Shown in pieces: positions 23,226 to 25,023 of a DNA stretch of 64,000 bases. The notes beneath the pieces were generated by a model. It was not told where the DNA came from. It searched no databases and saw only the letters and a program-made list of their open reading frames with translations. Every line of letters begins with the position of its first letter. Position 1 is the first letter of the stretch. The position numbers and the translations under genes are program-made. This DNA comes from a bacterium (lineage in GTDB: Bacteria; Patescibacteriota; Microgenomatia; UBA1406; GWC2-37-13): NCBI GenBank assembly GCA_021833625.1, contig JAKBEU010000003.1, positions 124,001 to 188,000 on the forward strand. The letters run 5' to 3'.

Positions 23226-23615
23226 TTAGAGAGGCAGATACTTATCCGCAAACAGGTCTGCCTCTCTTTCTTGGCGGCTGATTTCTATGGGCGTTTGTTG
23301 GTATCCTATCGAGTTTCTATGATTAAGCAGTACGTGTCCTATTTCATGCAAAACAGTGTGCTTTATTTGTCTTTCATTTTGATTTAGCAGTTCGTCCGAG
23401 ATAAGGATAAGACTTCGGTCTTTAATTTCAGAACCTTTAAAGGTGAGAGCCCATGAATCTTCGGGGGAAGATATGAACCAGACTCTCGCACACACATATT
23501 CGATAATTTCGGAAGGAAGTAAAAGAATTGTTTCACATATGAACCTCCTCATTACGGGATTGCCAATAAGCTTACCGCCCAAAGCACGTTCGACTTTTTT
23601 TACAGTCCATTTCAT
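23226..23615 (-). CDS. ImmA/IrrE-type metallopeptidase
   Basis: The 129-residue protein has the zinc protease motif HEIGHVLLNH (about 93-102) and a downstream EREADLFADKYL segment that supplies the third ligand, as in ImmA/IrrE proteases. Such proteins cut repressors to switch on mobile elements or stress genes. The usual adjacent Xre-type repressor is not seen, but a MerR regulator lies divergently next door. The ATG at 23615 is chosen because a -10 (TATACT, 23627-23622) ends 6 nt before it; an in-frame ATG at 23651 lies upstream of that -10. Confidence 0.8.
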   Translation of the reverse strand: MKWTVKKVERALGGKLIGNPVMRRFICETILLLPSEIIEYVCARVWFISSPEDSWALTFKGSEIKDRSLILISDELLNQNERQIKHTVLHEIGHVLLNHRNSIGYQQTPIEISRQEREADLFADKYLPL

Positions 23616-23686
23616 AGGACTAGTATAATAAAACGTAAACAACCCTTTCATATTTTTCTGTATTTTTTAGAAAAATCATTACCCCC

Positions 23687-23717
23687 TTGACATTCCAGTT
23701 ACTGGAATGTTTATAAT
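23687..23717 (+). promoter_or_regulatory. MerR-type promoter with operator in the long spacer
   Basis: TTGACA (23687-23692) and TATAAT (23712-23717) are 19 bp apart, the overlong spacing typical of MerR-controlled promoters. A perfect 9-1-9 palindrome (CATTCCAGTTACTGGAATG, 23691-23709) fills the spacer, as expected for autoregulation by the downstream MerR protein. The -10 ends 6 nt before the merR ATG. Confidence 0.9.
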
Positions 23718-23723
23718 TATTTC

Positions 23724-24176
23724 ATGAAAAGCTACACCATAGGACAGGTTGCGTCTTTGGTCAATTTATCAACAAAAACGATCCGATTCTATGAAGAATC
23801 GGGAATAATAACACCCGCCAAAAGACTGGAAAATAGATATAGGACATACCCGGCCTCAACGGTAGAAGAGTTGAAGATGCTGAAGTATGCCCGCGATATG
23901 GGGTTGCCGCTGGTTGAGATAAAAAAATTAATGAAGGGTTGCGATAAGGGAGATTGTCATCATTCAGGTGACTACGTGAGAGAATCCATAAGTAATTATC
24001 TGTATATCCTTGATGAAAAAATCGCACAAATGACAATATTAAAACGAAAGCTAAACGAGTTAAGGAGCACATTAGTAATTAATAAAGAAACGTGCGCGAA
24101 AGACGGTGTTTATTGCTGCAATATATTACAGCAGTTAATTAGTTTTACTAAGGGAAAGGGGGTGGAAAACATATGA
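23724..24176 (+). CDS. MerR-family transcription regulator, probably metal- or thiol-sensing
   Basis: The 150-residue protein starts with a MerR winged helix (YTIGQVASLVNLSTKTIRFY, then the ENRYRTYPASTVEEL wing), followed by the dimer helix. Cys residues lie where metal sensors have them: CDKGDCHH (about 73-80) and CAKDGVYCC near residue 128-136. The exact ligand set is not that of CueR, ZntR or MerR, so the metal is unknown. It carries its own operator promoter and overlaps, through ATGA, a 12-codon Cys-rich peptide gene that it presumably controls. A hairpin terminator closes the unit. Confidence 0.92.
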   Translation: MKSYTIGQVASLVNLSTKTIRFYEESGIITPAKRLENRYRTYPASTVEELKMLKYARDMGLPLVEIKKLMKGCDKGDCHHSGDYVRESISNYLYILDEKIAQMTILKRKLNELRSTLVINKETCAKDGVYCCNILQQLISFTKGKGVENI

Positions 24177-24211
24177 ACGGAGGTTGTTGTGGAGGTGGCT
24201 CTTGCTGCTAG
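24173..24211 (+). CDS. 12-residue Cys-rich peptide coupled to merR
   Basis: An ATGA overlap at the merR stop opens a 13-codon frame encoding MNGGCCGGGSCC and ending in TAG. A purine-rich GGGGGTGG lies about 8 nt upstream, a good ribosome site. The two CC pairs separated by a flexible Gly/Ser linker look made to bind a soft metal ion. The terminator begins 8 nt after the stop, so the transcript is exactly merR plus this peptide. It is probably translated by coupling to merR. Function is inferred, and the frame is too short to be proven by sequence alone. Confidence 0.6.
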   Translation: MNGGCCGGGSCC

Positions 24212-24328: not shown

Positions 24329-25006
24329 TCAATATTCTCCAAGATAATAATGAGGTAGTGTGCCTGTATAACCGAAATAAATCTTGCTTTCAGATAAGGC
24401 AACCGCATGAACTATGCTTAAATCGTCTCTTGGTAAATAAAACCATTCACCGCCTAATAAACGCTCTTTTAGGAATTTATGCAAAAATTGTTCTAATTTT
24501 TTATAATGCTTTGTTGGATAAAATGCATAAACTTCAATAGGCAGGGGATTTCCAGTTTGGATATTTGATAATCGTTTTAATAAATCTTTAGTTATGCCTA
24601 TTTTATATTGATCAGTGCCTGATATTCTCATAATATACAATCCCTCTTTGCCAATCGACTCATTTTCGATGACAGAATCGAGCGTTGTTCTTTCCCTATA
24701 CGTTTTTCCGGATTTGAAGACTACTCTAAATGGTTTCTCGCTTAGGATGATAAATCCTAAATCAACAAGCATCCAAAGTTGTGCGTGATAAACTCTCTGT
24801 TTATCATAGTTTTTACCGACATCCATTATTTCTTTTGCCTTGGCATAACCGTAATTGTATCCTTCGCATTCCTCGTGAAATTTACAGGCTGTTTTTGTAT
24901 TATTGGCGATTATAAACCAATCTTCTCCATGATCAGAAGTAGAAACCCAATATAGTTTCTTTTTTACGCTATTTATACTGCTGAATTTGTCCATACAAGC
25001 TTGCAT
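24329..25006 (-). CDS. T5orf172/GIY-YIG nuclease-like protein, partner of a SIR2 gene
   Basis: The 225-residue protein has a C-terminal GIY-YIG fold of the T5orf172 (MUG113) type: GLYIMRISGTDQYKIGITKD (about 138-157), then KRLSNIQTGNP, and LGGEWFYL near the end. The N-terminal half (1-130) has a WFIIANNTKTACKFHEE stretch and a winged-helix-like part; it is not recognised. It starts 17 nt after the SIR2 stop and is surely co-transcribed. The upstream in-frame codons are TTG/GTG, so the ATG at 25006 is taken; 24994 is also possible. The role is probably DNA cutting in defence, by inference. Confidence 0.72.
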   Translation of the reverse strand: MQACMDKFSSINSVKKKLYWVSTSDHGEDWFIIANNTKTACKFHEECEGYNYGYAKAKEIMDVGKNYDKQRVYHAQLWMLVDLGFIILSEKPFRVVFKSGKTYRERTTLDSVIENESIGKEGLYIMRISGTDQYKIGITKDLLKRLSNIQTGNPLPIEVYAFYPTKHYKKLEQFLHKFLKERLLGGEWFYLPRDDLSIVHAVALSESKIYFGYTGTLPHYYLGEY

Positions 25007-25023
25007 TGACACCAACAATATAA

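Follow-up and report, generated by a model that had tools for sequence, protein, structure and literature searches.

A conserved, unannotated candidate gene for a tiny cysteine peptide in a minimal MerR operon, with metal buffering as its most likely role

Results

A very short frame overlaps the stop codon of merR

The window, that is, the whole stretch of 64,000 nucleotides analyzed here, contains a merR gene with its own promoter, followed by a tiny frame and a hairpin. The features of the unit, in order, are:

23687..23717, + strand: promoter TTGACA-TTCCAGTTACTGGAATGTT-TATAAT with a 19-bp spacer; same layout ahead of merR in 5/5 orthologs
23690..23710, + strand: MerR operator palindrome ACATTCCAGTTACTGGAATGT, copper (HmrR/CueR) type; single copy in the genome at ≤3 mismatches
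23724..24176, + strand: merR, 150 aa, CueR/CadR-like; probably leaderless, ATG 6 nt past the -10 box
24155..24165, + strand: AAAGGGGGTGG, ribosome site for the tiny frame, embedded in the final codons of merR
24173..24211, + strand: tiny gene MNGGCCGGGSCC, 12 codons; positional counterparts in L064, L065, L066 and L067
24219..24249, + strand: terminator-like hairpin of 12 pairs, starting 7 nt past the stop of the tiny frame; end of the operon

The 3′ end of merR reads GTG GAA AAC ATA TGA, with the stop codon at 24174-24176. The ATG of the tiny frame (24173-24175) lies within the ATGA (24173-24176) that it has in common with this stop codon. The codons beyond the overlapping ATG are AAC GGA GGT TGT TGT GGA GGT GGC TCT TGC TGC TAG, the TAG stop occupying 24209-24211. 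With the universal anti-SD sequence assumed for all SD energies, AAAGGGGGTGG pairs at -15.7 kcal/mol, a strength equalled by 0.12% of 3,464 sampled ATGs. Hence, three claims of the sequence-only reading agree with the letters of the window: a frame whose start overlaps the merR stop in ATGA, a good ribosome site and a terminator closing the frame, namely the 12-pair hairpin 7 nt 3′ of the stop. Both neighboring genes are on the minus strand. The divergent one (23226-23651) encodes an IrrE/M78-like metallopeptidase (weak Pfam match) with a HEIGH motif, and the convergent one (24329-25018) a protein with a MUG113/T5orf172 (GIY-YIG-like) domain.

The merR promoter carries a copper-type operator

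The operator palindrome, ACATTCCAG-TTA-CTGGAATGT, is located inside the 19-bp promoter spacer. Together with TTGACA and TATAAT at 23687-23717, it confirms the initial view that merR has its own 19-bp-spaced operator promoter. The copper signal of HmrR is ACCTTCCAG-(3)-CTGGAAGG (PMC1526738); the L064 operator matches it exactly, and the window operator with two half-site changes. In total, 6/6 merR loci, i.e. the window and five orthologs, have a 19-bp spacer with an operator of the copper (HmrR/CueR) type.

The ATG of merR is positioned 6-7 nt past the -10 box in the window (23712-23726) and at L079 (9011, +), L080 (9538, +), L081 (14694, +), L082 (9568, -) and L083 (10570, -). Given this short distance, merR looks leaderless in all six loci, and in the window it probably is. 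A leaderless-looking merR next to a tiny gene with a very strong SD suggests that the two are deliberately expressed at unequal levels.

The regulator is a metal-type MerR

The window protein has the winged helix-turn-helix and the dimerisation helix of the MerR family; it matches the MerR-family model PF13411 with 62.8 bits, as well as PF00376 and PF09278. Its best NCBI model is CueR (TIGR02044), with 78.1 bits for a cut-off of 147.4, which is not reached; CadR/PbrR and then ZntR come next. Among relatives of solved structure, E. coli CueR is the closest in sequence, and an AlphaFold model (pLDDT 77) was matched by Foldseek to CadR, CueR and NmlR structures. The regulator is thus of the metal type.

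Divalent-metal MerR sensors have a cysteine at CueR position 77. In the alignment with CueR, this position is a serine in the window, L064 and L065, and a threonine, an alanine and a leucine in the other three orthologs. C73 and C78 are invariant across the six MerR proteins. The cysteines of the CueR C-terminal metal loop (C112, C120) are kept, with a changed spacing, in the window, L064 and L065; the loop is altered in L066 and L068 and missing altogether in L067. These changes make it uncertain whether the regulator senses Cu(I).

Allowing up to three mismatches, the window operator has no second copy in its genome. The same genome has a copper operon (L084 7322-11240; G000:C1, about 95.3-99.2 kb) encoding a CsoR-type repressor, an HMA-DsbD_2-cupredoxin fusion and a CopA P-type ATPase. 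No such MerR operator was found in this CsoR-linked copA operon. With one operator only, and with copA linked to CsoR, MerR has no evident target besides merR and the tiny peptide. Overall, the unit shares with CueR/HmrR the MerR fold, the 19-bp-spaced promoter, an HmrR-matching operator and the lack of a cysteine at position 77. It differs by falling below the NCBI CueR cut-off, by the additional invariant C73 and C78, by a variable or missing C-terminal metal loop, and by a regulon without copA or cueO, where the unit controls itself and the tiny peptide.

Cysteine-rich tiny frames follow orthologous merR genes

Using MerR alone as a query, five merR orthologs, 34-55% identical, were identified among 373 genomes of the same class. 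Its assignment to the CPR/Patescibacteria is based on genome sizes of 0.5-1.8 Mb and on the sequence-only reading. The orthologs belong to five families of this class. No further ortholog came from profile searches centered on G714, G580 and G600. The MerR search in near relatives and in a phylum-wide sample returned no ortholog, only relatives of the DNA-binding domain, and no MerR relatives, operators or PPCC frames were found in viral contigs. What follows merR in the five orthologs is:

L064 (G580): AAAGGAGGTGATACAA-ATG, MKDPTSCPGGCC; overlaps merR by 17 nt
L065 (G714): AAGGAGGGAAAA-ATG, MRSPPCC; overlaps merR
L067 (G600): AAAGGAGGTAGTT-ATG, MRIPPCC; 2 nt past the merR stop codon
L066 (G621): AGGTGAGAAATA-ATG, MKNCTCCGDECKCGDCKC; one base in common with the merR stop codon
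L068 (G559): thioredoxin gene in ATGA overlap with merR, then a CcdA-like gene; no tiny peptide

The sequence-only reading held that its proposal would fail if the peptide frame were not conserved behind orthologous merR genes. In fact, a CC-ending tiny frame with a strong SD is present at the merR stop in 3/5 orthologs (MKDPTSCPGGCC, MRSPPCC and MRIPPCC), and a fourth ortholog has MKNCTCCGDECKCGDCKC. Cysteines make up 4/12 residues in the window, 3/12 in L064, 2/7 in L065, 2/7 in L067 and 7/18 in L066. All five peptides show the high cysteine content in Cys-Cys or Cys-x-Cys motifs that is typical of metallothionein-like sequences. Their lengths range from 7 to 18 residues, with little identity beyond M...CC. 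The double CC initially stressed in the window peptide is therefore not a conserved trait: the terminal CC or the richness in cysteine is retained, the doubling is not, since the 7-residue peptides of two orthologs each contain just one CC.

A hairpin lies directly 3′ of the tiny frame in 5/5 loci that carry one. The hairpin loops of the window, L064, L065 and L066 share GCGC/CGCG (ATCGCGA, TGCGCGC, ACGCGCGA and TCGCGCGA), which may be the terminator style of the group. In the window genome and the four other genomes with a peptide, the unit is isolated, with unrelated genes around it. For the window, L064 and L065, the following gene is convergent. The offset of the tiny frame with respect to merR is -1 in the window and +1 in L064 and L065.

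In G559 (L083 8742-10637, minus strand), the ortholog merR is followed by an ATGA-overlapping gene for a thioredoxin-fold protein with WCPEC, then by a CcdA/DsbD_TM gene. This arrangement shows that an effector can occupy the slot behind merR, and is consistent with thiol or metal stress.

The tiny peptide accompanies one rare MerR clade, and most MerR genes of the group are without it. Among 144 relatives, the exact peptide pattern matched in its own genome only. The peptide DNA pattern gave five matches in 84,980 species genomes, all accidental (TGG-ending, out of frame or within other genes); since the ortholog peptides do not fit this pattern, it is too narrow for the result to count as evidence of absence.

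The comparison points to selection on the tiny frame

We examined 327 gene ends, the five merR of this clade and 322 others, for a frame of 5-40 aa starting ≤60 nt from the gene stop, with an SD match of ≥4 nt and a CC end. The window, which had been chosen for its peptide, is excluded from the count of 3/5. A single one of the 322 other gene ends (0.3%) passes, weakly, and its start is a TTG located 56 nt within the gene. At a background of 1/322, the probability of 3/5 is about 3e-7, and with a 5x higher background it is still < 1e-4. In addition, the SDs of the five tiny frames range from -11.8 to -18.7 kcal/mol, within the strongest 0.03-0.55% of the 3,464 ATGs. As judged from these comparisons, selection acting on the tiny frame is well supported. 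The frame is preserved across genomes although its length and offset vary, a pattern that favors a translated product over an RNA motif or a frameshift tail.

An AGGAGG-ATG-...-Cys-Cys-stop pattern occurred at 30 places in the 373 class genomes, seven of them in frame. Three of these are the present peptides. Three SD-led, CC-ending frames are inside larger genes and were judged accidental and unrelated. The doubtful seventh, a 15-codon SD-led frame MIFTDCGLLTPFCCC just before a rodA-like start (L112 at ~1500, minus strand, G119), is the only other CC-ending tiny frame outside larger genes in this search; it was judged unrelated, probably due to chance. As a control, we inspected five genes for MerR/CueR-like proteins from plasmid or phage records; no CC-ending tiny frame was found, and P-type ATPases adjoin 3/5 of them.

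Discussion

A self-regulated sensor with a putative thiol peptide

Metal buffering appears as the most likely role of the peptide. We lean, by a narrow measure of confidence, toward a self-regulated sensor coupled to a ribosomally made thiol peptide that would buffer a soft metal, probably Cu(I) or Ag(I). A CueR/HmrR-like MerR would sit on the 19-bp-spaced operator of its own promoter. Loaded with a soft, thiophilic metal, of which Cu(I) and Ag(I) are the likeliest, it would then activate its own message; in the MerR family, the metal-bound regulator remodels an over-long promoter. The message would give some MerR from the probably leaderless start and, from the strong SD in the last codons of merR, a peptide of 7-18 residues, perhaps in excess. 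The working part of the peptide would be its C-terminal Cys-Cys or run of cysteines. By chelating the metal, it would lower the free metal until MerR turns off, acting in effect as a ribosomal phytochelatin or a minimal metallothionein.

From the regulator, the operator and the chemistry of cysteine, we infer that the peptide serves as a metal trap; its translation in the cell, the identity of the metal, its chelation, the feedback and the ratio of peptide to MerR belong to the same proposal. The unit described by the sequence-only reading, an autoregulated metal-type MerR with a coupled tiny cysteine peptide, is backed by the orthologs, while the "chaperone" part of that description has no specific support. 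On the other hand, several points count against buffering. The peptides number just five, with little in common beyond M...CC, the CueR-type metal loop is changed or absent, and the window protein falls short of the CueR cut-off. The 7-residue peptides hold one CC, so that each would bind one ion at most or act as a dimer; with two or three thiols in 3/5 peptides, a classical thiolate cluster in one molecule is unlikely. Moreover, free short peptides are usually degraded fast in cells.

Comparison with known systems

SmtB is an ArsR-family repressor and SmtA a folded metallothionein of about 56 residues. Like SmtB-SmtA, the present unit pairs a metal sensor with a small cysteine-rich product, here predicted to bind metal; the sensor is a MerR activator, in contrast, and the product has 7-18 residues and no fold. 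The non-ribosomal phytochelatins and glutathione are also very short thiol peptides that buffer soft metals, as predicted here, whereas the present peptide is encoded, presumably made by the ribosome, and has adjacent cysteines. As far as PMC7790235 relates the work of Canestrari 2020, the mycobacterial polycysteine leaderless short ORFs are likewise very short, contain Cys pairs and are missed by annotation, but they lie upstream of operon genes and attenuate them; the present frame has an SD, comes at the end of its operon and is followed by convergent genes. Finally, E. coli CueR carries a C-terminal tail, CCHHRAG, for which a role as second metal site has been proposed (PMC9004249); there too, adjacent cysteines at a C-terminus go with a copper MerR. 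This tail offers a precedent for a terminal CC as metal ligand, with the difference that the CC is part of the regulator in E. coli CueR and on a separate peptide here.

Alternative readings

The peptide could act as a CC ligand in trans, as the CueR tail may do in cis with its proposed second metal site (PMC9004249). It would remove metal from MerR or complete its site, tuning the response of the sensor without bulk buffering. The strict coupling to merR in four genomes, the lack of another operator in the window genome and the retention of a PPCC peptide in L067, whose MerR has no C-terminal Cys loop, all favor this reading. We nevertheless hold it to be unlikely: the MerR of the window, L064 and L065 retain their own C-terminal cysteines, a regulator with its own tuning peptide as sole output has no evident benefit, and the 7-Cys peptide of L066 resembles a metallothionein rather than a tail.

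With a marginally lower probability, the vicinal CC peptide would be induced by metal or thiol stress and act as a reducing thiol of low mass or as a carrier of disulfides, in place of glutathione or of a thioredoxin system. The G559 slot, with its WCPEC thioredoxin-fold protein and CcdA-like membrane carrier, speaks for such a redox role. However, the regulator and the operator are of the metal-sensor type, and no reductase partner adjoins the unit in the four peptide genomes.

An action at the RNA level, in which the TGYTGYTAR-stop and the hairpin would serve termination, stability or cysteine-codon attenuation around an inert peptide, seems improbable to us. It draws on the hairpin immediately 3′ of each tiny frame and on the mycobacterial polycysteine short frames, which are cysteine-responsive attenuators in the account of Canestrari 2020 given by PMC7790235. 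Lengths, Cys codons and stops vary, however, while the frame remains intact and SD-led, and the L066 cysteines are spread through the whole frame. Attenuation in particular was rejected: the tiny frame closes the operon and, with a convergent next gene in the window, L064 and L065, no target for an attenuator is left.

A chance frame behind an ordinary MerR gene is very improbable. The frame has 12 codons only and no exact relative in 84,980 species, though the pattern is narrow; the orthologs contradict chance (3/5 against 1/322, about 3e-7, with a strong SD every time), and this reading was rejected. Programmed frameshifting that adds the CC residues to MerR, suggested by the overlapping frames of the window, L064 and L065, is barely credible and was discarded, as the offset varies among genomes (-1 or +1), the L067 ATG lies past the merR stop, every tiny-frame ATG has its own strong SD and the window overlap has no classical slippery heptamer.

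Significance

Frames of 7-18 codons fall under gene-calling limits, as anticipated for the window frame, and such products are therefore invisible in annotated genomes. In the open-licence literature, we found no published description of such peptides. Returning to metal buffering, it is tempting, if still somewhat speculative, to see here a family of gene-encoded peptides that bind metal with as few as 7 residues (MRIPPCC), the smallest of their kind, and that with a leaderless self-regulated MerR would form a full two-gene circuit of metal homeostasis, a ribosomal counterpart of phytochelatin and glutathione in ultra-small bacteria. If the peptide binds metal, the size limit of gene-encoded metallopeptides would move to a new minimum, and the two-gene circuit would be easy to test. 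The comparative evidence indicates that operon effectors can be as small as 7-18 codons, and the 3′ ends of autoregulated sensors with no other apparent target may provide a route to more such tiny effectors.
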